Assembly: GCF_016834455.1 (NCBI RefSeq)
Contig: NZ_CP069213.1
Location: 3,139,501 to 3,203,500, forward strand
Length of the DNA stretch: 64,000 bases
Origin: Shewanella litorisediminis
GTDB lineage: Bacteria > Pseudomonadota > Gammaproteobacteria > Enterobacterales > Shewanellaceae
Reading direction: 5' to 3'
The first letter of the stretch is position 1. Each line of letters starts with the position of its first letter. A program made the position numbers and the translations under genes. Below the pieces are notes generated by a model. The model ran no database searches and was not told the origin of the DNA. It was given only the letters and a program-made list of their open reading frames with translations. Shown piece by piece: positions 4,984-17,371 of this stretch.

Positions 4984-6324
4984 ATGGTCGACTTCAACGC
5001 AATTACAGGACAAGACACACCGTCCCTTGAGCATTACTGGATGCCGTTCACCGCGAACCGCCAGTTCAAAGCCAGCCCACGATTGCTGGCCAGTGCAGAG
5101 GGTATGTTTTACAAAGATGTTGACGGCAATCCGGTACTGGATTCCACCGCGGGCCTTTGGTGTTGTAACGCCGGCCACGGCAGAAAGAAAATCAGTGAAG
5201 CTGTCAGCCACCAAATCCGTGAATTGGATTACGCCCCTTCATTCCAAATGGGCCACCCACTGGCATTCGAACTGGCCAGCCGCCTCGCCGACATAGCGCC
5301 GGCAGGACTGAACCGCATCTTCTTTACCAATTCAGGCAGTGAATCTGTCGATACGGCACTGAAAATGGCGCTTGCCTACCACAGAGCCAATGGCCAGCCC
5401 ACCCGCACCCGCTTTATTGGCCGTGAACTTGGCTATCATGGCGTTGGCTTTGGCGGCATCTCCGTGGGCGGTATCGGCAACAACCGCCGTACTTTCAGCC
5501 AGCAATTGCTGCAGGGCGTCGACCACCTGCCCCATACGCTGGACATCGCCAACAACGCCTTCTCACGAGGTTTTCCCGCCCATGGCCTCGAAAAAGCCGA
5601 GGTGCTGGAACAACTCATTACCCTCCACGGTGCGGAAAACATCGCCGCCGTTATCGTTGAGCCCATGTCTGGCTCCGCTGGCGTGATTCTTCCGCCTCAG
5701 GGTTACCTCAAGCGTCTGCGCGATATCACCAAGAAACATGGCATCTTGCTGATTTTTGATGAAGTCATCACAGGTTTTGGCCGTGTTGGTGACGCCTTTG
5801 CCAGCCAGCGCTGGGGCGTTGTGCCCGATTTGATGACCACAGCCAAAGCACTCAACAATGGTGCTATTCCCATGGGAGCTGTGTTCGTGAGCCAGGATGT
5901 ACATGATGCCTGCATGACTGGCCCAGAGGAACTGATTGAATTCTTCCATGGTTATACCTATTCCGGCCATCCGGTCGCGGCAGCGGCCGCGCTGGCAACA
6001 CTGGATATTTATCAGGAAGAAAAACTGTTTGATCGTACCAAGGAACTCGAAGGCTACTGGGAAGATGCGGTCCACAGTTTGAGAGACCTGCCAAATGTGA
6101 TTGATATCCGCAACACAGGTCTGGTCGCCGGGGTGCAACTGTCACCCAATGATGAAGGCCCGGGGCGCCGGGGCTACAAGGTATTCGAGCGCTGCTTCAG
6201 AAACGGCACCCTGGTGAGGGTCACCGGCGACATCATTGCCATGTCTCCGCCACTTATCGTGGAAAAGCAGCACATCGACCAAATCATTAATACCCTCGGC
6301 GACGCCATTCGCGCCGTTGGATGA
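4984..6324 (+). CDS. Omega-amino acid:pyruvate aminotransferase (class III, PLP)
   Basis: A 446-residue class III aminotransferase. The N-terminal HYWMPFTANRQFK segment is characteristic of the beta-alanine/omega-amino acid:pyruvate transaminase branch. Further marks are the IFDEVITGFGR motif and the PLP lysine in TTAKALNNG (Lys288). Likely reaction: beta-alanine (or GABA) plus pyruvate to malonate (or succinate) semialdehyde plus alanine. The ribosome binding site AAGGT lies about 9 bases before the ATG. mmsA follows after 42 bases, so the pair would carry beta-alanine to acetyl-CoA. Preference for beta-alanine rather than GABA or putrescine is inferred from the mmsA neighbour. Confidence 0.85.
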   Translation: MVDFNAITGQDTPSLEHYWMPFTANRQFKASPRLLASAEGMFYKDVDGNPVLDSTAGLWCCNAGHGRKKISEAVSHQIRELDYAPSFQMGHPLAFELASRLADIAPAGLNRIFFTNSGSESVDTALKMALAYHRANGQPTRTRFIGRELGYHGVGFGGISVGGIGNNRRTFSQQLLQGVDHLPHTLDIANNAFSRGFPAHGLEKAEVLEQLITLHGAENIAAVIVEPMSGSAGVILPPQGYLKRLRDITKKHGILLIFDEVITGFGRVGDAFASQRWGVVPDLMTTAKALNNGAIPMGAVFVSQDVHDACMTGPEELIEFFHGYTYSGHPVAAAAALATLDIYQEEKLFDRTKELEGYWEDAVHSLRDLPNVIDIRNTGLVAGVQLSPNDEGPGRRGYKVFERCFRNGTLVRVTGDIIAMSPPLIVEKQHIDQIINTLGDAIRAVG

Positions 6325-6366
6325 CCCCTTTGCCAGCACAGAATTAACAGGTAGCCAAAGATACCC

Positions 6367-7857
<1,491 letters not shown>

Positions 7858-7865
7858 GCAGATGC

Positions 7866-7883
7866 GGGGCACACCTGTGCCCC
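7866..7883 (+). other. Intergenic hairpin mmsA / cupin
   Basis: A perfect 8-bp stem GGGGCACA / TGTGCCCC with a CC loop sits in the 39-base gap between mmsA and the cupin gene. There is no T tract, so it is more likely an mRNA stability or processing element than a terminator. Confidence 0.4.
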
Positions 7884-7896
7884 CTTCGGAGCAACA

Positions 7897-8262
7897 ATGA
7901 CTGCAAAAATATCTGATATACAGCGATTTTCGGCATCAAACGCCCAAACAGAGCAATATTTCCTTCCCGAGGAAAAACGCCTTGATGGCAATCCGCTGCA
8001 ATCGCTAACCAACCACTATTCCAGCCCCTGTGGCCAGTTTCACGCTGGGGTTTGGCAGAGTGCTGGCGGTAAATGGAATGTCAACTATACTGAACACGAA
8101 TTTTGTGACATTCTCGAAGGGTCCAGCATTATCTGCGACAGCGAAGGTAACTGCCTGACCGTGGAAGCTGGAGACAAGTTCGTTATCCCCGCCGGTTTTA
8201 AAGGCACATGGGAGGTGGTTGAACATTGCCGCAAGATCTATGTGATTTTTGAGCAAAGCTAA
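7897..8262 (+). CDS. Small cupin-domain protein
   Basis: A 121-residue single-domain cupin. The pattern GGKWNVNYTEHEFCDILEGS followed by VEAGDKFVIPAGFKGTWEV fits the DUF861 / ureidoglycine-aminohydrolase-like cupins. No signal peptide. GGAG lies 6 bases before the ATG. As the third gene after the transaminase and mmsA, it probably belongs to polyamine or beta-alanine catabolism, but its reaction is unknown. Small cupins of this kind are commonly found in puu-type clusters. Confidence 0.8.
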   Translation: MTAKISDIQRFSASNAQTEQYFLPEEKRLDGNPLQSLTNHYSSPCGQFHAGVWQSAGGKWNVNYTEHEFCDILEGSSIICDSEGNCLTVEAGDKFVIPAGFKGTWEVVEHCRKIYVIFEQS

Positions 8263-8370
8263 CAGGTAAACCCGCCATGAGGTCACAGCCAAGTGCTGAT
8301 GTTTGGCAATAAATGTGAACGTGCGAATTAACGTCGTCACTGTCAACAAAAGTAAAATGGAGAATCAAGC

Positions 8371-9099
8371 GTGGATAAATATTTCAATAAAAACAAGCTT
8401 GCTAAGCTGACTGGGATCCTTCTGACAGGTGCGCTGCTGTCCCCTTTGGCCAACGCCGGTGAACTGACCGGTGAAGTTGGGGTGGCCAACGATTACCGCT
8501 TCCGTGGCATATCGCAAACTGACAGTGGTTTCCAGGTTTCTGCAGGCATTGATTATGCCGCCGACTCAGGCTTCTTCGTGGGTGCCTGGGCCAGTAACGT
8601 GGACTTCGGTGAAGACGATGACACCAATATTGAATTGGACATCTATGCCGGTTACTACCATGAAGTCAGTGACGATCTGTCGTTCGACGTCACCATCTAT
8701 CGCTACAACTATTTCGGTGAAACCAGCGATTACGATTACTTCGAAGGCACCGTTGGCGCCGATTTCCATGGTTTCCGTGCTGCTTACTGGTACACCAACG
8801 ACTACAGCGGTTCAGACTACGACTACCATTACCTGGAGTTGAACTACAGCTGGGAATTTGCTGAAAACTGGAGCCTGGACCTGCACATAGGTAACAACTT
8901 CGGCGATGCGATTGAAGATGAAGATTTCGGCTTTGGCGATACCTTTATCGATTACTCCATCGGTGTGTCTACCGAAGTGGCCGGTTTTGGTCTGTCTCTG
9001 GCCTGGCTCGATACCAACCTGGATGACGATGTACAGATCACTGACGATCTGTTCAATACCGAAGGCACAGTGCTCGCCAGCGTAAGCTACGCCTTCTGA
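8371..9099 (+). CDS. TorF-family putative porin (Gcw_chp)
   Basis: A 242-residue exported protein with signal peptide ending around residue 29 (SPLANA-GE). The mature part is an alternating aromatic/acidic beta-barrel-like chain starting GEVGVANDYRFRGISQTDS, the signature of the Gcw_chp / TorF family, and ends in a C-terminal Phe. It should reside in the outer membrane. The start is GTG 8371 with GGAG 10 bases upstream. It follows the catabolic genes, so it may admit their substrates, but it could be a separate unit. The terminator at 9131-9157 closes it. Confidence 0.85.
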   Translation: MDKYFNKNKLAKLTGILLTGALLSPLANAGELTGEVGVANDYRFRGISQTDSGFQVSAGIDYAADSGFFVGAWASNVDFGEDDDTNIELDIYAGYYHEVSDDLSFDVTIYRYNYFGETSDYDYFEGTVGADFHGFRAAYWYTNDYSGSDYDYHYLELNYSWEFAENWSLDLHIGNNFGDAIEDEDFGFGDTFIDYSIGVSTEVAGFGLSLAWLDTNLDDDVQITDDLFNTEGTVLASVSYAF

Positions 9100-9130
9100 T
9101 CCCAGGTCTTTCTCCCTTCCCCCCCAAACA

Positions 9131-9157
9131 AAAACCGCCCAATCGGGCGGTTTTTTT
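9131..9157. terminator. Bidirectional terminator after the TorF-like gene
   Basis: Arms AAAACCGCCC (9131-9140) and GGGCGGTTTT (9145-9154) with an AATC loop and a seven-T tail. It lies between converging genes and touches the stop region of the minus-strand gene at 9156. Confidence 0.92.
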
Positions 9158-9377
9158 ATTTCACCTGGTTCACCCGCGGCACATCTCCGCAGTCTATTTG
9201 ATGTTTCAACTCACGCCAATAACGGCTGAGTTCGGTCAACGGCTGATGCCGCTCAGGGAAGTGGCTGCGCATGTTTTCTATCAGGCGGGCTTGTTTGTCA
9301 CACATCTGCGACCAGGCTTTGGCGTTGGTAAGGGGCATGGGGTCATCCTTAACGTGAGTGGGGTTCCTGTCTTGCAT
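9156..9377 (-). CDS. Small hypothetical protein
   Basis: A 73-residue soluble, charged protein (AWSQMCDKQARLIENMRSHF, then ELSRYWRELKHQIDCGD) predicted to be mainly helical. No family recognised. The second of two tandem ATGs (9377) is chosen because AGGA lies 5 bases upstream. A strong shared terminator directly at its 3' end supports it being a real transcription unit. Confidence 0.55.
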   Translation of the reverse strand: MQDRNPTHVKDDPMPLTNAKAWSQMCDKQARLIENMRSHFPERHQPLTELSRYWRELKHQIDCGDVPRVNQVK

Positions 9378-9482
9378 CATAAATCCTGGGCGCCATATCT
9401 CAAGGTTGCAAATGAGACCTTGTGCACTTTTTTTATAAAAAGTTAAGGCGTATCTTTAACAAAAAACGCCGGGGAATTTTTT

Positions 9483-9827
9483 ATGTTAGCTAACCTTTTG
9501 AAACTGCTTTTTATCGCTATTGGTGTGTACATTCTTTATCGGCTCATCTTTGGGGGTAAAAAAGGCCTGTCGCTGTTCGAGATGCATTTTAAGGAAGGTC
9601 GCATGACCAGCCACAAGGGAAAAATTCCGGAAAAATTTGAGCGCGAGTGCAGAAACCTGGCCAAAGCAGAAAAGCTGACCTGTACTATCCGCGCTGAACG
9701 CCTCGGCGATGTACGCTTACATATTTCGGCAAATGTGCCAGATAATCTGACTCAGCGGATCCGCAATCTGTTTCCTTTTGAGCTGTACGACAAAAAAGCC
9801 GTGGATAATAGTAAGCAAAGCATCTGA
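9483..9827 (+). CDS. DUF3634 family membrane-anchored protein
   Basis: A 114-residue protein with one N-terminal transmembrane helix (about residues 4-22) followed by a basic cytoplasmic domain with the segment GRMTSHKGKIPEKFERECR, matching the DUF3634 proteins common in Shewanella and Vibrio. Function is unknown. GGGGA lies upstream of the ATG. It is a single-gene unit closed by the terminator at 9851-9880. Confidence 0.8.
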   Translation: MLANLLKLLFIAIGVYILYRLIFGGKKGLSLFEMHFKEGRMTSHKGKIPEKFERECRNLAKAEKLTCTIRAERLGDVRLHISANVPDNLTQRIRNLFPFELYDKKAVDNSKQSI

Positions 9828-9850
9828 ATTACCACACTTCAGCTTCCGTT

Positions 9851-9880
9851 AAACGCCGACATTTGTGTCGGCGTTTTTGT
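9851..9880 (+). terminator. Terminator after DUF3634 gene
   Basis: A 10-bp stem (9851-9860 with 9867-9876) rich in GC, with a run of five T, 23 bases after the stop codon. Confidence 0.9.
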
Positions 9881-10006
9881 GATCTGAGCCACCACGACTC
9901 ATTCACCACATAAATGTCAAAACCATTTTTAAGTGAGTTTATCGAAATAACCAGGTTCTCTAATATGGCTCCATCGGCGAACGCCTACTCATAAAGGAAC
10001 ACCAAG

Positions 10007-12109
10007 ATGCTGAAACTCACCGTTGTATCTGTAGCCGTCATTTCAATGTTATCGGCAGCCCCAAGCTATGCCGGCCCAGGCCACAACCATGGCGCAGGTC
10101 AGGACGAGCATGCCCTGACCACCAGCTTTACCTACCAAGGCAAACCCGCCACCGAGGCCACCAAGGCCCACAACGCCAAGGTCGCCGCTGGCCTTAACTT
10201 TGCCGACCAAGAGGCCTTTAACAACACCCGGGCCAAACTCATCGCCAAGCTCGATGATGCCACTGCCGCGCTGCTGGCCGACAAGTTCGAATTTATTGGC
10301 AATGAGACCCCTGATACGGTCAATCCGTCCTTATACCGCCAGGCCCAACTGAACAATGAAGCCTATGGATTATATGAAGTCAGAGACGGCATCTATCAGG
10401 TACGCGGCACCGACCTTGCCAACATGAGCTTTGTGCGCACCGACAACGGCTGGATAGTCTTCGATCCGCTTACCACTTTTGAATCGGCCAAGGCGACACT
10501 CGACTTTGCCCTGAAACATCTCCCGGGCGGAGACAAGCCGGTGGTGGCCATGGTGTATTCACATTCCCACAGCGATCACTTTGGTGGTTCCCGCGCGATT
10601 GCGGAGCGTTTTCCCAATGTAAAAGTGTACGGCTCACATAACATCACCGCCGAAATGGTCGATGAAAACGTCCTTGGGGGCAATGCCATGGCACGCCGAG
10701 CCTCCTATCAGTATGGTAATACCCTATCTCAAGGCAACACCGGCATTGTGGATGCGGCGCTGTCCAACGGCTTGGCCAAAGGGGAAGTCACCTATGTGAT
10801 GCCCCACTATGAAACCAACGCTCAGGGCCAGAAGTTTGAAAAGCTGAACATAGATGGCCTAGAAGTCATCTTTATGGATGCCTCCGGCACCGAGGCACCA
10901 TCCGAAGCCGTAGCTTACATTCCCTCAAAGCAGGCCATCTGGGGCGCCGAAGTGATGTATCACGGTATGCACAACGTCTACACCCTGCGTGGTGCCAAGG
11001 TACGTGATGCCCTCAAGTGGTCCAAAACCATTAACCAGATGATTGAAGCCTGGGGCGGCGAAGCCCAGTTCCTGTTTGCCGCGCACAGCGCACCTGTGTG
11101 GGACAACGACAATATCCTGTCTTACATGAAACTGCAGCGTGACAACTACGGCTTTGTCCATAACCAGTCGCTGCGACTGGCAAACTCCGGTGTAGTGATG
11201 CAGGACATCGGCTGGGAAATTCAAAAGGTCATTCCAGAAACTATCGAGAAAGCCTGGCACACCAACGGCTATCACGGTACTTACAGCCACAATGCCCGCG
11301 CCGTGTACAACATGTATCTGGGTTACTTCGATATGAATCCGGCCAACCTTAACCCTCTGCCAACCAAAGAAGAAGCGGCTAAGTTCGTTGAATACATGGG
11401 TGGTGCCAAATCTGTGCTGAAAAAAGCCAAGAAAGATTTCAGCCAGGGCGAATACAACTTTGTTGCGACTGCGCTCAACAAGGTGGTAATTGCAGACCCC
11501 AGAAACGAAGACGCCCGTAACCTGCTGGCCGATACCTACGAACAGCTGGGATATCAGTCCGAGGGTGCTGGCTGGCGCAATGTATACCTGTCGGGAGCTC
11601 AGGAGCTCAGAGTGGGCATTCAGGACGGCGAGCTGAAATCTGCCTCAGCAGATGTAATTGCCAACATGCCTGTCAGCAGCCTGCTGGACTATCTGGCCAT
11701 CAAGCTTGACTCTGTGAAGGCGCAGCATCATAGCTTTGGCTTTAACCTGGTACTGCCCGACATCAAAGAAACCATCTATGTCGAACTTGCCAACGGCAAC
11801 CTGAACAATATCAAGGTAGATAAGCCCAAGGCCGGTGCCGACCTTACTGTAACCCTGAACAACAAAGATGCCATCGCCATGAACCTGGGCCAGGTATCGC
11901 TGAAGCAGTTGTTTGAAGCCGGTAAGGCCAGCTATGAGGGCAATATCCAGGTACTGGATACCCTCAAGAGCCTGATGGTGGATTTCGACCCTCGCTTTGA
12001 AATCGTGCCGCTGCCGACTCAGACCGAAGCAGATGCCAATCGTAGCCTCTACTACACGAGCGAGCCACAGCACGACGACAAGCATTGGGGACGTCGTCAC
12101 CAGCACTGA
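10007..12109 (+). CDS. Exported alkylsulfatase, metallo-beta-lactamase fold
   Basis: A 700-residue protein with a signal peptide (about 1-22, APSYAG) and the layout of SdsA1/YjcS alkylsulfatases. A metallo-beta-lactamase domain (about 120-350) carries the zinc motif HSHSDHFGG (His186, His188, Asp190, His191). An alkylsulfatase dimerisation domain follows (about 370-510, with GYHGTYSHNARAVYNMYLGY), then an SCP2-like C-terminal domain (about 570-690). It should hydrolyse primary alkyl sulfates such as SDS in the periplasm. The C-terminus ends in a His-rich tail. An insertion sequence lies 18 bases past the stop codon and separates the gene from its probable terminator. Confidence 0.92.
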   Translation: MLKLTVVSVAVISMLSAAPSYAGPGHNHGAGQDEHALTTSFTYQGKPATEATKAHNAKVAAGLNFADQEAFNNTRAKLIAKLDDATAALLADKFEFIGNETPDTVNPSLYRQAQLNNEAYGLYEVRDGIYQVRGTDLANMSFVRTDNGWIVFDPLTTFESAKATLDFALKHLPGGDKPVVAMVYSHSHSDHFGGSRAIAERFPNVKVYGSHNITAEMVDENVLGGNAMARRASYQYGNTLSQGNTGIVDAALSNGLAKGEVTYVMPHYETNAQGQKFEKLNIDGLEVIFMDASGTEAPSEAVAYIPSKQAIWGAEVMYHGMHNVYTLRGAKVRDALKWSKTINQMIEAWGGEAQFLFAAHSAPVWDNDNILSYMKLQRDNYGFVHNQSLRLANSGVVMQDIGWEIQKVIPETIEKAWHTNGYHGTYSHNARAVYNMYLGYFDMNPANLNPLPTKEEAAKFVEYMGGAKSVLKKAKKDFSQGEYNFVATALNKVVIADPRNEDARNLLADTYEQLGYQSEGAGWRNVYLSGAQELRVGIQDGELKSASADVIANMPVSSLLDYLAIKLDSVKAQHHSFGFNLVLPDIKETIYVELANGNLNNIKVDKPKAGADLTVTLNNKDAIAMNLGQVSLKQLFEAGKASYEGNIQVLDTLKSLMVDFDPRFEIVPLPTQTEADANRSLYYTSEPQHDDKHWGRRHQH

Positions 12110-12117
12110 CAAGTTCA

Positions 12118-13340
12118 GGCATTAGCCCAGGGCGGGATTCCACTTTGTGCATAATTTAGCCAAAGAGCAGCTCTGAACGAAATACAGGGCTCCAAGCTGC
12201 ACGCCGGCGCTTACCTGCAAGGCTGTCTTTCTTGCCATTGTGCTGTTTTATTGCACTTAGTGCCGCACGGTTGAATAGGGCCAAATGTTTAGCACCCTCT
12301 GGATCTGACACTTTCAAAGCATCCTCGCGAAAAACAACGTCCAGCACCCAGTGCAGTTGGTTCTCAACGGCCCAGTGGTCGCGGATTGTGCGAGCTGCTT
12401 CCTCAGCGTCCACTGGCAGGGAGCTGACGTACCAACGTGACGAACATGATGTGCTACCATTAACAGTCCGCTCGCTGGCGACCTCTATCAGTGACTTTAT
12501 ATGGGGCCATTTCTTTTTCAGGTCTGGTGACAACTCGGCTTCAGTTTGCATCACGGTCCTGCACTCCTTGCGGCCATGACCGGTGTTGGACTGTTCATAC
12601 GTTTCCAGTTCCTTTGAGTCATAAAGGTTACGGAATGACGCCTGCACTTCCTCAAGCAGCGCTTTTTGATTGGACTTCACCTGGATCACGAAATCGCCTT
12701 TGCGCTGTGTAATTGTGCTCATGGTGGCGACCTGGCAGTGCAACGCGTCGAGCGTGACAATTGCGTTATCCAGTGCCAAGGCATCAATCACGTTTCGGGC
12801 AATCTCGGCTTCTTTGCCTTTGGTATTCGAACTGTCCTGATAAAGCGTGACACCGTTGCTGACATCGAACGCACTGACGACATGAAGTGCATTTTTAACG
12901 TCGTCACTCCACGCACCGCGCATCGTTTTACCGTCAAGAGCGATGACCGACTTACCTTCGCTCTGCCGTTTCTCGTTGATCCAGCTGAACACCGTTTGCA
13001 GCAGAAGCTCACTATCCAAGGCTTTGATAATGTTGGCGATACAGTGTCGTCTGGGGATACCATACTCAAACTGGCGGTACTGCCGTAACCAGTCGAGTTG
13101 TTCTTCACCGAACTCCTGGATCGACTTCCAGCCGGTTGCACCGCTGAGTACGGCAGAGAGTGTCAGGAAGACTACGTCAACCAAGTTGTGTTTAAGATTG
13201 ATTTCCTTACGAGGATCGGGCAGTGTTTCAAGGTGTTCCAAAAGATTCATGTCTGTCAGCTGGTTATGACTAATGCTGATCTGATCATAAGGCTGTGTAA
13301 AAGTTCAACTCAAAGTGGGATCCTGCCCTGGGCATTAGCC
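12118..13340. mobile_element. ISAs1-type insertion sequence with 10-bp target duplication
   Basis: The element is 12128-13330 (1203 bp). Terminal inverted repeats 12128-12147 and 13311-13330 match at 18 of 20 positions and start CAGGGC. It is flanked by perfect direct repeats GGCATTAGCC at 12118-12127 and 13331-13340. The length, ends and single DDE transposase fit the ISAs1 family. The perfect duplication and intact transposase indicate a recent insertion. Confidence 0.93.
12156..13250 (-). CDS. ISAs1 family DDE transposase
   Basis: A 364-residue intact transposase. It starts LEHLETLPDPRK, the DDE_Tnp_1-associated N-terminal domain, followed by the catalytic domain with VIALDGKTMRG and IVTLDALHCQ carrying the two aspartates, and the RDHWAVENQLHWVLDV region with the Glu. 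This is the same family as the H-repeat-associated proteins of Rhs loci. No frameshift or stop is seen, so the element could be active. Confidence 0.95.
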   Translation of the reverse strand: MNLLEHLETLPDPRKEINLKHNLVDVVFLTLSAVLSGATGWKSIQEFGEEQLDWLRQYRQFEYGIPRRHCIANIIKALDSELLLQTVFSWINEKRQSEGKSVIALDGKTMRGAWSDDVKNALHVVSAFDVSNGVTLYQDSSNTKGKEAEIARNVIDALALDNAIVTLDALHCQVATMSTITQRKGDFVIQVKSNQKALLEEVQASFRNLYDSKELETYEQSNTGHGRKECRTVMQTEAELSPDLKKKWPHIKSLIEVASERTVNGSTSCSSRWYVSSLPVDAEEAARTIRDHWAVENQLHWVLDVVFREDALKVSDPEGAKHLALFNRAALSAIKQHNGKKDSLAGKRRRAAWSPVFRSELLFG

Positions 13341-13444: not shown

Positions 13445-14383
13445 TTGTTTTACCAGAAACAAATACAAGACCACATGGGCGATTACGGCAAGCTGGATCT
13501 GAATCTGTTGCGGGTATTTATGTGCGTATATCAGCACAGCTCCTTCACTCGGGCGGCGGATGTTTTGGGGTTGACCCAATCATCTGTCAGCAACGCCATT
13601 GCCAGACTCAAAGCACAAATAGGTGAGGAGCTCTTTGTGCGCACCGGACGCGGCATTACTGCTACAGCCGCAGGGCATCAATTATATCGGGGTTTGTCTG
13701 TCGCCATGGAGGACATTGCCGCCACACTGGATGCCTTTAAAGCGTTCGATCCGGCCACCAGCACCCGTCAATTTACGGTGTATACCTACGAAGCGGCAAC
13801 TCATACGCTGCAACACCTGCTCGAACCCCTCCTGCGCGACTTGAAACTGGGGATTGTATTCAAAGACATGACCGCCGATCCCGAAGGCGTTTACCAAGCG
13901 CTCTATAGTGGCAGCGCCGACATGGTGATAGACATTCTTCCCCCCACAGGCAACAGCACCAAAAGCCAGCTGCTTATCGAAGAAAAGTTTGTATGTGTCG
14001 CTGCCCGTAATCACCCAAGGATCCATGGCAGCCTTTCGGCAGAGCAATATGCGGCAGAACGCCACTGTGTCTTAAACCTCAGCCGTCATGGTTTAAGTCT
14101 TGGCGAGATCTTCTGCGACGAGCCCCTGCCAGAACGGCACATCTATAGTGAGAACAACAGTGAAATCAGTATGATGGCTAGCATCGCCCGAAGCGAAGCC
14201 ATCGGCATTGCGCCCTCACGGCTGGCCCGAGCCTATGCACCTTTATTGCAATTACAGGTACTGCCCTTCCCTTTCAAAAGCCGCGCCATCCCGGTTTACA
14301 TGGTTTGGCCCCGGCGAGTAGATAACCAACCTTCCCACCGCTGGCTCAGAGATATTCTCAGTCAGGCGGTGTCCAATCAATGA
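13445..14383 (+). CDS. LysR family transcriptional regulator
   Basis: A 312-residue LysR protein. The winged helix-turn-helix is near the N-terminus (LDLNLLRVFMCVYQHSSFTR, then DVLGLTQSSVSNAIARLK) and a LysR substrate-binding domain follows. The family usually senses a small molecule and acts on a neighbouring gene. The start is probably TTG 13445, since AGGAG sits 8 bases upstream; the ATG at 13475 has no ribosome binding site. The next genes on the same strand (DUF6662-like, FMN-binding, ApbE, membrane protein) are the likely targets, but this is inference. Confidence 0.88.
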   Translation: MFYQKQIQDHMGDYGKLDLNLLRVFMCVYQHSSFTRAADVLGLTQSSVSNAIARLKAQIGEELFVRTGRGITATAAGHQLYRGLSVAMEDIAATLDAFKAFDPATSTRQFTVYTYEAATHTLQHLLEPLLRDLKLGIVFKDMTADPEGVYQALYSGSADMVIDILPPTGNSTKSQLLIEEKFVCVAARNHPRIHGSLSAEQYAAERHCVLNLSRHGLSLGEIFCDEPLPERHIYSENNSEISMMASIARSEAIGIAPSRLARAYAPLLQLQVLPFPFKSRAIPVYMVWPRRVDNQPSHRWLRDILSQAVSNQ

Positions 14384-14531
14384 GCTGAAAACAAGCTTAA
14401 ATTTTATTAGCCATATTTATCAATAACATAGATATGAAAAGCACAAAAACATAATGCGAACCATTTTCATTTTCACCTGCATTATCTAAAATGCGCAGCA
14501 GTTTGGACATAACATCAAGATGGGAATGAAC

Positions 14532-15428
14532 ATGAAAGCAACAAAACTTGGGCTATGCATATTTGCCCTGCTCGCCACAGCAGTCAGCCAACACAGCCTT
14601 GCGGGTGAAGATCTGTTTGGCTATATCAAAGGCGCCGAAGCCCTGCCTGAAGGCGCCTCTGAGCTATACCAAAAAGTCACAGTACGTGACGGCAAGAGCG
14701 TGGCTTCGTATCAGGGTATCGACTTCGAGACCGAATACGAATACGGGGTTTCCAACAAGTTTTCTTCATCGGTTTCGGCCAAGTTTATGTCGCTGGATAC
14801 CAAGGGCCTATCCATTGATGGCTACCTGCCGGGGGCCAAAGATATAGGTTTCAAAGCCTCTGGCGTGGAATTGGGAATGGCCTACATGTTCCTCAGTCCC
14901 GCCAAAGACGATGTGGGTCTGCAGGCCAGCCTGTCACTGGACTACGACTGGATTGACAAGCACTCAGGCTATGACAAAGACACACTGTCGCTGGAGCTGG
15001 GACTGCAAACACAAAAGTACTTTATGGAAGGTGAGCTGGTTTGGCTTGGTAACATGGCGGTGGAAACCACCTACGCCAACCGCGCCCCCATCGATAACCT
15101 ACCGGAGGATTTTGACTGGCCAACCGATCCGGAAATGGAGATCGAGCTTAAATTCGGTACAGGCCTGAGCTATCGTTTCGCCCCCAACTGGTTTGTCAGC
15201 GCCGAAGTACTCTACGAGACCGAATTTGAAACCGAAGTAGGTCAGGAACGCTGGTCATGGTTCGCCGGTCCTTCACTGCATTACGGCAGCGCCAACTGGT
15301 GGGCAACACTGACCTGGCTGCCTCAGCTTGCCGGTGGTGGTGAGCAGTTTGACGGCCAGGATACCGACCTGCACCTGATTGAAAAAACAGAGCAGGAATG
15401 GCGCTTTAAGATCGCCTACAACTTCTGA
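14532..15428 (+). CDS. Exported DUF6662-like beta-barrel protein
   Basis: About 298 residues. The signal peptide (KATKLGLCIFALLATAV, cleaved near HSLAG) is followed by a mature chain of amphipathic beta strands with many aromatic residues, ending in Asn-Phe, as in outer membrane barrels. It resembles the poorly described DUF6662 family. ATG 14532 is chosen because GGGA lies 8 bases upstream; in-frame ATGs at 14520 and 14526 are alternatives. A hairpin with four T (15438-15461) separates it from the FMN-binding gene, which would allow partial read-through, so co-expression with the flavin genes is plausible. Confidence 0.7.
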   Translation: MKATKLGLCIFALLATAVSQHSLAGEDLFGYIKGAEALPEGASELYQKVTVRDGKSVASYQGIDFETEYEYGVSNKFSSSVSAKFMSLDTKGLSIDGYLPGAKDIGFKASGVELGMAYMFLSPAKDDVGLQASLSLDYDWIDKHSGYDKDTLSLELGLQTQKYFMEGELVWLGNMAVETTYANRAPIDNLPEDFDWPTDPEMEIELKFGTGLSYRFAPNWFVSAEVLYETEFETEVGQERWSWFAGPSLHYGSANWWATLTWLPQLAGGGEQFDGQDTDLHLIEKTEQEWRFKIAYNF

Positions 15429-15437
15429 TTGCAGGAT

Positions 15438-15461
15438 GGGGCGTCCGTCGACGCCCCTTTT
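15438..15461 (+). terminator. Weak terminator or attenuator before the flavin genes
   Basis: Perfect 8-bp stem GGGGCGTC / GACGCCCC with a CGTC loop, followed by TTTT, lying 12 bases before the ATG of the FMN-binding gene and just ahead of its TGGAG ribosome binding site. Confidence 0.6.
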
Positions 15462-15472
15462 GGAGAATCACA

Positions 15473-16024
15473 ATGTCTGACTCCCTGTTAAACAACAGCC
15501 TCTGGTTTATTCCCATGACTTTTGTGGCGGCACCTGCCGTGGCCGCCGATTACCTGAGTATCCCTCTGGCGCAGCAGTTACTGTTTCCCTCCGCGAGTAG
15601 CTTTATCGAGCGCCCTACCCTGTTTGACAGCGGTGCACGCAGCGCTATCAAATCCCATGCCGGCACCAGACAACGTCAGGACCACCAGCCCATTTGGCGG
15701 GTAGAAAAAGACGGTCAGTTACAAGGCTGGTTTATGGTCGATGACGTTATAGGCAAGCACGAATACATTACCTACGCCGCCGCCATCAGCGCCGACGGCG
15801 AAGTCATGGGCATAGAAGTGCTGAGCTACCGCGAAACCCACGGCGCAGAAGTACGAGACGAAAGCTGGCGCACCAACTTCAAAGGCAAAAGTCTGAAAGA
15901 CCCCTTCAAGCTCGATGAAGATGTGCCCAATATCAGCGGCGCTACCCTCAGTTGCCGTAATCTGCTTGATGGAGTCAAAAGACTGCTGACCATCCACGAG
16001 CTTTTTCTGGCCCGCGAGTCCTGA
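15473..16024 (+). CDS. Exported FMN-binding domain protein
   Basis: A 183-residue protein with a hydrophobic N-terminus (about 10-25) ending in AVAA, consistent with export, then an FMN_bind domain of the RnfG/NqrC type. The flavinylation signature SGATLS is at residues 155-160, with Thr158 in the position where ApbE attaches FMN by a phosphoester bond. An apbE gene begins at the very next base after the stop codon, strongly suggesting this protein is its substrate. Predicted role: a periplasmic flavin electron carrier. Confidence 0.85.
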   Translation: MSDSLLNNSLWFIPMTFVAAPAVAADYLSIPLAQQLLFPSASSFIERPTLFDSGARSAIKSHAGTRQRQDHQPIWRVEKDGQLQGWFMVDDVIGKHEYITYAAAISADGEVMGIEVLSYRETHGAEVRDESWRTNFKGKSLKDPFKLDEDVPNISGATLSCRNLLDGVKRLLTIHELFLARES

Positions 16025-16846
16025 GTGCTGCGCCGCGCCAAACCCATGCTGGGCACCCTGACGGACATCAGGATCACTGCCCCCGGCCATGCTGATGTAA
16101 AGGTAGCGATGACTGACGCCTTTCGGCTGATGAGCGAGATAGACACCAGCCTGTCGTTTCATCGGCCGATGAGTGCACTTTCGTCCCTCAACGCCAGCCC
16201 GATGCAATGGACCGACATGGGCAGACATGGCGCCAGGATACTCTGGCTCGCCAAAGCGCTGGGCAGGCTGAGCGATAACCGTTTCAATGTCACCCTGGGC
16301 GGCGCTCTGGTCACCGTCGGAGCACTGCCCTGTCATACCGAAGCCGACTTTTTACCTTGTGGCAGTTGGGAAGACATAGAGATAAAAGGCACCCGGGCCA
16401 GGCTTAAACGGCCGGTTCTGGTTACCCTGGATGGCATTGCCAAGGGCTACGCGGTGGACATGGCAGTAAGCTGCCTTAAACGCTCTGGGGTGCGCGCAGG
16501 CTCGGTCAATGCCGGGGGCGATCTCAAAGTGTTCGGGGAATACGGCATTAAGGTGCTGCTGAGAAACAGCCAGGGCTTTACCGATACCCTGTGGCTCAAG
16601 AATGCTGCACTGGCAAGCTCAAGGCTCGGCGGTGGGCCGGATGCGCGCTTCCCCTCGCTTATCATTTGCCAGGATGCTCCCCCGGAAAATTCCCCGCAGA
16701 CCGAGTCCCTGCTATCTGTTATCGCCCCTTTTGCCTGGCGTGCCGATGCGCTCACCAAGGTGCTGGCGTCTGCCACCCCAGATATGGTGACTCGCCTCGG
16801 CGGACACATTCCTTACCCAGCATCAAACCCTGAGTCCACGCCCTGA
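16025..16846 (+). CDS. apbE: ApbE family FAD:protein FMN transferase
   Basis: A 273-residue ApbE-family protein, short for the family (often 300-350) because it starts almost directly at the MLGTLTDIRI core. It has the GIAKGYAVDMAV and AGGDLKVFG motifs that bind FAD and metal. ApbE transfers FMN from FAD to a Thr/Ser of FMN_bind proteins. The start is GTG 16025, immediately after the preceding TGA. No signal peptide or lipobox is visible, unlike most periplasmic ApbE proteins, so where it acts is open. The partner is almost certainly the FMN-binding protein upstream. Confidence 0.88.
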   Translation: MLRRAKPMLGTLTDIRITAPGHADVKVAMTDAFRLMSEIDTSLSFHRPMSALSSLNASPMQWTDMGRHGARILWLAKALGRLSDNRFNVTLGGALVTVGALPCHTEADFLPCGSWEDIEIKGTRARLKRPVLVTLDGIAKGYAVDMAVSCLKRSGVRAGSVNAGGDLKVFGEYGIKVLLRNSQGFTDTLWLKNAALASSRLGGGPDARFPSLIICQDAPPENSPQTESLLSVIAPFAWRADALTKVLASATPDMVTRLGGHIPYPASNPESTP

Positions 16847-16858
16847 GACAAGAGACTG

Positions 16859-17371
16859 ATGAAACGCTTAAACGGATATCCTGACTGTTTTTTTTACCTG
16901 CTTATTGTGTCGATGACGCTTTGCGCCGCCACCGGGTTTGCCATGTATCCCTGGGTACTGGAATTTAAACTGGAATGGGAACTGCCCATGATGCTTAATG
17001 GTCGATGGCGCTTGCCTCTGGTGAGCACTCACGCTCTCAGCGCGGCTGTGCTGCTGATACTTCTCGGTGCGCTTTGGCAAGTCCATATACGCGCAGGCTG
17101 GCGTAAAAAGAAAAACCATGTCAGTGGGCTCTTAATGTCACTTTCCATGATGCTGTTGATGCTGACAGGTGTTGGTCTTTATTACCTGAGCGCAGAGTCG
17201 GCGCAGTTTGCAGCAAGCCTTGCCCACTCGGGAATGGGATTATCCCTAGTGTGCGTATTCACCTGGCACTGGGTAAAGGGCCGCAGGGTAAGGAGGCAAA
17301 AAATCCAGCAGGCAGCCAGTAAGCACACCAGCTCCCGGCAGGCGTTAAAGCAGCATTCTTTGACTGAATAA
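16859..17371 (+). CDS. Four-helix membrane protein, possible haem-binding redox subunit
   Basis: A 170-residue integral membrane protein with four hydrophobic helices (about 10-28, 55-75, 83-103, 115-135) and a basic C-terminal tail. Histidines lie in or near helices: VSTHALSA, WQVHIRAG, LAHSGMG and FTWHWVKG. This resembles small cytochrome b-like proteins such as the DUF4405 group that accompany FMN_bind and ApbE genes, though I cannot confirm a family match. It lies 12 bases after apbE and may pass quinol electrons to the flavinylated protein. That role is inference. Confidence 0.7.
   Translation: MKRLNGYPDCFFYLLIVSMTLCAATGFAMYPWVLEFKLEWELPMMLNGRWRLPLVSTHALSAAVLLILLGALWQVHIRAGWRKKKNHVSGLLMSLSMMLLMLTGVGLYYLSAESAQFAASLAHSGMGLSLVCVFTWHWVKGRRVRRQKIQQAASKHTSSRQALKQHSLTE

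Follow-up and report, generated by a model that had tools for sequence, protein, structure and literature searches.

Where and how does a secreted protein acquire a covalently bound flavin? The question is posed by four genes in a 64,000-nucleotide stretch of the Shewanella litorisediminis genome (the window; positions 3,139,501–3,203,500 of the sole contig of a 4.24 Mb genome), which encode a DUF6662 protein, an FMN_bind protein, an ApbE-family protein and a four-helix membrane protein. In the usual picture, ApbE acts outside the cytosol and uses flavin adenine dinucleotide (FAD) there. The initial annotation described five consecutive genes at 13445–17371, from a LysR regulator to the membrane protein, and all five open reading frames are found there on the plus strand. 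The conserved unit is the last four of them, the module, which is a widespread operon and not merely a local cluster.

We compared 91 rows, consisting of the window, nine loci of the same genus (L036–L044), one of the same order (L045) and 80 contig loci, the latter being the best 80 of 180 confirmed relatives from a scan of named genomes with an FMN_bind alignment. Three genomes are present twice among the rows (L038/L048, L040/L049 and L044/L053). All four genes occur in the order DUF6662, FMN_bind, ApbE, membrane protein in 65 of the 80 loci, which excludes chance as the cause of the gene set. Taken singly, ApbE is present in 77 of the loci, the membrane protein in 72 and DUF6662 in 70, and at least two of the 15 loci without the full ordered set are cut by the locus end (L072 and L082). 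Alteromonadales, beta- and alphaproteobacterial groups and Verrucomicrobia are represented among the 80 loci, along with other lineages. Within the genus, FMN_bind orthologues with 68–97% identity are found in nine of 59 other genomes, all nine with the same four-gene order. The operon is nevertheless patchy in the genus, because the membrane protein is present in only 14 of 117 genomes (a separate draw, the window's own genome counted). DUF6662 was found in 11 of 398 genomes of the phylum, again in a draw that includes the window's own, and starting from this gene, FMN_bind and ApbE of the module type are adjacent in ten of the 11 loci, the exception being L136. In the window the four genes are tightly packed, with 44, 0 and 12 bases between them (Table 1). 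Neighbourhoods and profiles support the original proposal of a flavinylation-type gene set with a barrel protein and a leaderless ApbE, and the neighbourhood survey that had been suggested as a check confirms its conservation, in the 65 ordered loci as well as in the nine of the genus.

Table 1 Features of the module and its flank in the window
Feature	Position	Strand	Evidence or remark
LysR regulator	13445..14383	+	Pfam HTH_1 2.6e-21; flanks the conserved module, not a member
Fur-box-like element CATAATGCGAACCATTTTC	14450..14468		51 bases 5′ of the DUF6662 start
DUF6662 protein, predicted outer-membrane β-barrel, N-terminal leader	14520..15428	+	PF20367 3.9e-95
FMN_bind protein, predicted exported flavin carrier	15473..16024	+	PF04205 2.1e-10
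Flavinylation motif SGATLS, residues 155–160, acceptor Thr158, context DVPNISGATLSC	15935..15952	+	
Divergent ApbE-family protein, GTG start, leaderless	16025..16846	+	PF02424 4.2e-25
Four-helix membrane protein, predicted diheme cytochrome b	16859..17371	+	His pattern, weak homologue Pfam matches, model

Two loci have a different arrangement 5′ of FMN_bind. A porin replaces DUF6662 directly 5′ of FMN_bind in L122 (4590–5912), and L102 (4033–5906) has a tandem pair of DUF6662 genes there, with the module-type ApbE and the membrane protein absent from the locus. In the window, FMN_bind and ApbE share one frame with a single TGA between them (16022–16025). A readthrough fusion of the two proteins across a retained single stop was considered and rejected: a single in-frame stop is present in only five of 90 pairs, as TGA (window, L036 and L119) or as TAG (L122 and L123), and is taken as chance.

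The LysR gene had been counted as a member of the set, but the neighbourhood in the same-genus loci rules this out. LysR adjoins the module in only two of the nine other same-genus loci (L037 and L038), where it lies directly 3′ of an alkyl-sulfatase gene, and the upstream region of the module has a Fur-box-like element. Matches named lysR in L036 and L039 are ~26% identical and are located away from the module. In the window a DDE transposase gene (12156–13250, minus strand) separates the alkyl sulfatase from LysR, which are adjacent in L037 and L038. The alkyl sulfatase, LysR and the module adjoin in the window, the transposase gene aside, and in L037 and L038. The barrel resembles the COG4313 channel and is also, more distantly, similar to CymD and other hydrocarbon channels. 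This could be read as one catabolic unit: the barrel would import a substrate that is sulfated or hydrophobic, and its oxidation would supply the flavin chain with electrons. We consider such a unit highly improbable, as neither LysR nor the alkyl sulfatase lies beside the module in the seven other same-genus loci, and the LysR cluster is found in five of 86 loci, with L048, the same genome as L038, as the sole case from the 80 (the flank clustering behind this count mixed overlapping frames in G+C-rich loci).

The FMN_bind protein matches its Pfam profile with 41.5 bits (cut-off 22). Its SGATLS motif starts at residue 155, making Thr158 the acceptor, and the residue numbering given for this intact flavinylation motif in the initial annotation is correct (SGAT at 155–158). 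The acceptor Thr is present in all 91 FMN_bind rows, and [ST]GA[ST] in 87 of them, the other four having SGGT or GGAT. Within the module the motif takes the form D-[IV]-x-N-I-S-G-A-T-L-S-C: among the 87 motif-bearing rows, Asn lies two residues before the motif in all 87, Cys three residues after the Thr in 77, and Asp three residues before the motif in one. D-x-x-[ST]GA[ST] is described as the FMN_bind flavinylation motif, with minor effects when the Asp is lost, in PMC12052999. The window protein lacks this Asp and has Pro152 instead; the four other FMN_bind proteins of its genome have Asp three residues before the motif. At the N-terminus, a hydrophobic leader ending in APAVAA and followed by DYL is seen by eye, and homologues have the same form. 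Leader calls were made with a hydropathy measure of our own, whose threshold is met in all 85 parsed FMN_bind rows, with a small-x-small pattern in 82 of them; six of the 91 rows were left unparsed, of which five, the window included, show a leader by eye and L093 none. No Lys or Arg is found in the first ten residues of 26 of the 85 leaders, and a paired Arg is present in three (L045, L062 and L120). L070 and L093, which belong to one metagenome bin, have FMN_bind copies with SGGT for SGAT, the copy in L093 also being the leaderless one.

For the ApbE enzyme, the earlier observation of a short protein without an evident signal peptide holds. The window protein begins at the catalytic domain, its open frame comprises 273 amino acids, and an upstream extension is impossible because the codon before the GTG start is the in-frame stop of FMN_bind. 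The Pfam match (89.2 bits, cut-off 25.6) covers only positions 2–195 of the 266 in the profile. A hydrophobic leader is found in one of 84 module ApbEs (L090, exactly at the threshold), compared to 19 of 20 other ApbEs; up to 30 codons before the motif were inspected in the 84 parsed of 90 module rows, against 45 residues in the controls, which are one ApbE each from 20 searched genomes, the window's included.

The active site of the module ApbEs also differs from that of the controls. The Ser-His-Asp set corresponds to Ser241, His257 and Asp285 of V. cholerae ApbE (PMC12052999). Of the 85 module ApbEs, 77 lack the His in its column and eight have it, compared to all 20 controls; the Ser is kept in 81 and the Asp in 83 of the 85. 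The stretch around the catalytic His is gappy, and 33 of the 85 have some His within four columns, the window protein none. The flavin-stacking column, which we equate with Tyr60 of E. coli ApbE, contains His in 72, Gln in 11, Tyr in one and Phe in one of the 85 module proteins, compared to Tyr in 11 and Trp in nine of the 20 controls. An aromatic residue stacks on the isoalloxazine in the FAD-binding class and a polar residue is found in the FAD pyrophosphatase class, and E. coli ApbE hydrolyses FAD when a Tyr near the flavin is changed to Ala or Asn (PMC4767422). Judged by these alignments, both the module ApbE and its FMN_bind partner depart from the usual consensus of their families. A Thr-to-Lys exchange at what we take to be the metal-ligand position of ApbE was rejected as a mark of the subfamily, since Lys is present in 83 of the 85 module proteins but also in seven of the 20 controls.

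The simplest account suggested by these sequences is that FMN (flavin mononucleotide) is attached by the module ApbE before export. We infer this from genomes in which the module holds the sole ApbE and the sole FMN_bind protein, and from the retention of the acceptor Thr in every row. In a search of 35 of the genomes of the 80 loci, the module ApbE is the sole ApbE match in nine, eight of which also have no other FMN_bind match; four of the eight are isolates (L063, L071, L079 and L121) and the rest are metagenome bins, possibly incomplete. A more specific version, which we advance tentatively and doubt slightly more than we trust, is that the rebuilt, leaderless ApbE works in the cytoplasm and flavinylates its partner there, either ahead of export or in the course of it. 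The covalently bound FMN would cross the inner membrane on the polypeptide, behind leaders that are mostly Sec-like and in a few cases twin-arginine-like. Enzyme and substrate would then have diverged together, the enzyme losing the His and the flavin-stacking aromatic residue, and the substrate losing the Asp while the Asn became fixed and the Cys common. A cytoplasmic flavin-attaching enzyme for an exported protein would be unusual, and the papers that we found do not name such a class of flavinylation system.

The lost His could also be taken to mean that the module ApbE does not function as a flavin transferase. Flavinylation of the carrier would then fall to a second, periplasmic ApbE of the cell (for example G000:C1:3003622), leaving the leaderless protein with a different role, for instance in cleaving FAD or supplying flavin. 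The window genome does contain two further ApbE matches, and the residue expected to face the isoalloxazine in the module enzyme is mostly a polar His or Gln, as in the FAD pyrophosphatase class (PMC4767422). We regard this division of labour as unlikely, in view of the nine genomes where no other ApbE is found, eight of them also without a second FMN_bind protein, and of the Thr kept in all 91 rows. The window's genome has a further ApbE-like gene (L143, G000:C1:1932285-1933031) with the Asp motif AGMLST and no evident leader. If the module ApbE does attach the flavin before export, a cytoplasmic ApbE would not need FAD outside the cytosol. The pair also offers an ApbE active site in which the proposed general base is naturally missing, useful for probing the mechanism of transfer.

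The membrane protein is predicted, from its sequence pattern and model, to be a diheme cytochrome b. The model consists of four helices (mean predicted local distance difference test score, pLDDT, 94.1) and four His are conserved, in agreement with the four-helix, His-bearing protein first described. In an alignment of 62 of 68 listed sequences, in which the others are 20–60% identical to the window protein, Gly26, His58, Gly70, His76, Gly90, Tyr109, His123 and His137 are invariant, and all four His are found together in 82 of 84 rows, the exceptions being L089 and L123. Helices 2 and 4 each bear two of these His, placed toward opposite ends, as is the case in diheme b cytochromes. The window protein itself matches no Pfam family at E ≤ 0.1, DUF4405 and PF01292 included; at the same threshold its homologues give weak matches to PF01292 (27 of 62) and PF14358 DUF4405 (21 of 62, best 4.8e-5). 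The list of structural matches is led by b-type cytochromes, namely cytochrome b6 (Z 12.0), superoxide oxidase 5oc0 (Z 11.0, 2.9 Å over 130 residues, a Z in the range for which the tool warns about helical bundles) and hydrogenase-1 cytochrome b (Z 10.9), with formate dehydrogenase among the first rows.

The DUF6662 protein, for its part, is predicted by its model to be an outer-membrane β-barrel. The Pfam match is strong (319 bits, cut-off 27), and the AlphaFold2 model (mean pLDDT 93.2) has 13 strand segments, of which 260–266 and 269–274 are read as one broken strand, probably giving 12 barrel strands. The best structural matches are FapF (Z 23.2) and the COG4313 channel 4rl8 (Z 22.7, 2.7 Å over 240 residues), so that the barrel fold and a Z of ~23 to known barrels bear out the description of an outer-membrane-like protein. 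A flavinylated barrel of the DUF3570 kind was considered and discarded, as no [ST]GA[ST] is found in the matched stretch in 89 rows. A literature search confined to open-licence papers found no text that mentions DUF6662 and no description of the gene set.

Based on these parts, we propose an iron-regulated electron-transfer operon of the envelope that works as a ferric reductase for iron uptake, a proposal for which we find belief and doubt evenly balanced; electron transfer as such we hold with greater confidence than the reduction of iron. The four genes would probably be under Fur-type, iron-responsive control. Electrons would pass from the quinol pool or another membrane donor to two hemes b of the four-helix protein, and from there to the FMN on Thr158 of the exported, periplasmic FMN_bind protein. 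The most likely acceptor for the FMN would be Fe(III) or its chelate, whose reduction would supply ferrous iron for uptake, and the DUF6662 barrel would serve as the channel through which the iron species, or its chelate, crosses the outer membrane. If this holds, DUF6662 would gain a role, and flavinylated electron-transfer systems would gain a widespread member with a testable link to iron assimilation.

The same flavin-cytochrome chain might instead run in the reverse direction or serve another periplasmic couple, for example by taking electrons from superoxide or some reduced compound and passing them to the quinone pool. CybB is a four-helix superoxide oxidase that feeds the quinone pool, and it is the protein of structure 5oc0, which the membrane protein resembles as described above; the cytochrome b561 matches in 27 of the 62 members at E ≤ 0.1 point the same way. 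The direction of electron flow is unreadable from sequence, and most of the 80 loci are without the iron genes looked for. On the other hand, several loci do have Fur-like sites and iron genes, and the module has a barrel protein of its own, which suggests that something passes the outer membrane. We judge a non-iron function for the chain to be rather unlikely.

The case for iron as the terminal acceptor, which we consider likely, comes from Fur-like sites and from neighbouring FeoB, bacterioferritin and FTR1 genes. The element CATAATGCGAACCATTTTC upstream of DUF6662 scores 14 of 19 against GATAATGATAATCATTATC, which we take to be the Fur consensus, a score reached at five positions of the whole window. 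In an upstream alignment of ten rows, inspected by eye, a similar element is found at the aligned place (TAATGCGAACTATTTTCAT in L036 and TAATGATAATGATTTGCATT in L044; weak in L040), the row for L051 being taken from a rough start. Among the 62 of the 80 loci with a usable upstream region, 17 have a Fur-like site at p ≤ 0.05, compared to 15 of 173 controls, namely other upstream regions in these loci (Fisher 5e-4, kinship uncorrected). FeoB is a single-copy gene in 43 of 49 genomes searched and lies inside the fetched locus in eight, where ~0.15 would be expected by chance according to rough arithmetic. In six of these eight loci FeoB is downstream and 73–100% identical to one seed, five being Hydrogenophilales or Thiobacillus. 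With tblastn seeds, the 80 loci gave FeoB in 11 (less surely in L095, with 28% identity), bacterioferritin in seven and a porin in 11, the latter related to the porin beside another FMN_bind gene of the window's genome. Pfam scans of the flanks, whose genes were selected by a home-made measure of codon-position composition that missed some genes, gave, among the 25 families listed per scan, Ferritin in four of the 93 upstream proteins and in two of the 97 downstream ones, and FeoB_N and FTR1 in two upstream proteins each.

That porin stands in a further cluster of the window's own genome, L047 (G000:C1:608300-620300, 5141–10073), which comprises a TonB-receptor-like gene, the porin, a short FMN_bind gene (TGATLS) and a PepSY-like membrane protein; apart from FMN_bind and the porin, its genes were named by eye. 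L047 is possibly another iron reduction set. PepSY-like and P19 systems have known connections to iron (PMC8238504).

Several observations weigh against a Fur-controlled ferric reductase. A Fur-like site at p ≤ 0.05 is absent from 45 of the 62 loci, and the shuffles preserve nothing beyond base content. In the nearest relative, L036, the score is 12 of 19 (p 0.45); the plain-consensus score is 12 in L036, L037 and L038 alike, with shuffle p values of 0.20–0.45, and the best site lies elsewhere in L036 and L037. FeoB and bacterioferritin occur as neighbours mainly in a few groups, which means that their counts are not independent, and in most of the 80 loci the fetched DNA contains neither gene. 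Methyltransferases (5 of 97), not iron families, top the list in the scan of the downstream flanks. For the membrane protein, designed four-helix proteins score about as well as b cytochromes (Z ~11), and the tool warns that Z may reflect a common arrangement only; the matches from Foldseek were helical but unspecific, and none reached E ≤ 0.001. The missing catalytic His of the module ApbE leaves flavinylation itself uncertain.

Among known systems, the module resembles in composition the PepSY-like, MsrQ-like, NapH-like, DsbD and NQR/RNF-like systems of Meheust et al. (2021; PMC8238504), with which it shares a cluster that combines ApbE with a membrane electron carrier and an extracytosolic protein of the flavinylated type. 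For several flavinylated systems that paper proposes a part in iron assimilation, and for some PepSY-like ones Fur repression (PMC8238504). The window membrane protein fits none of the five defining kinds, and the module adds the DUF6662 barrel and the leaderless ApbE. For the 62 membrane-protein homologues, the 25 families listed out of 51 include none of the five kinds; the PepSY membrane-protein profiles PF03929 and PF16357 are likewise absent from that list and have no match in the window protein. The DUF4405/FezC cytochromes (Huang et al. 2024, PMC11334425; preprint PMC10979944) are also small membrane proteins with four conserved His encoded beside ApbE, a likeness in the number of His. 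They have six helices (PMC11334425), whereas the window protein has four, and its partners are FMN_bind and a barrel. With E. coli CybB (5oc0) and the cytochrome b561 family the window protein may share the four-helix arrangement of a membrane cytochrome, and 27 of 62 members match the family weakly, but the protein itself has no family match and its gene adjoins an ApbE gene. DUF6662 resembles FapF (5o65) and the Pseudomonas putida COG4313 channel (4rl8), also of the outer membrane, in barrel fold (Z ~23); the identity is 11%, and FapF is an amyloid secretion protein. A parallel for the enzyme is the cytoplasmic ApbE of Klebsiella pneumoniae with its fumarate reductase (PMC12052999), also a signal-peptide-less ApbE with a substrate of its own. 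The Klebsiella reductase is described as soluble, with a flavin transferase in the cytoplasm, whereas the substrate in the window has an export-type leader.

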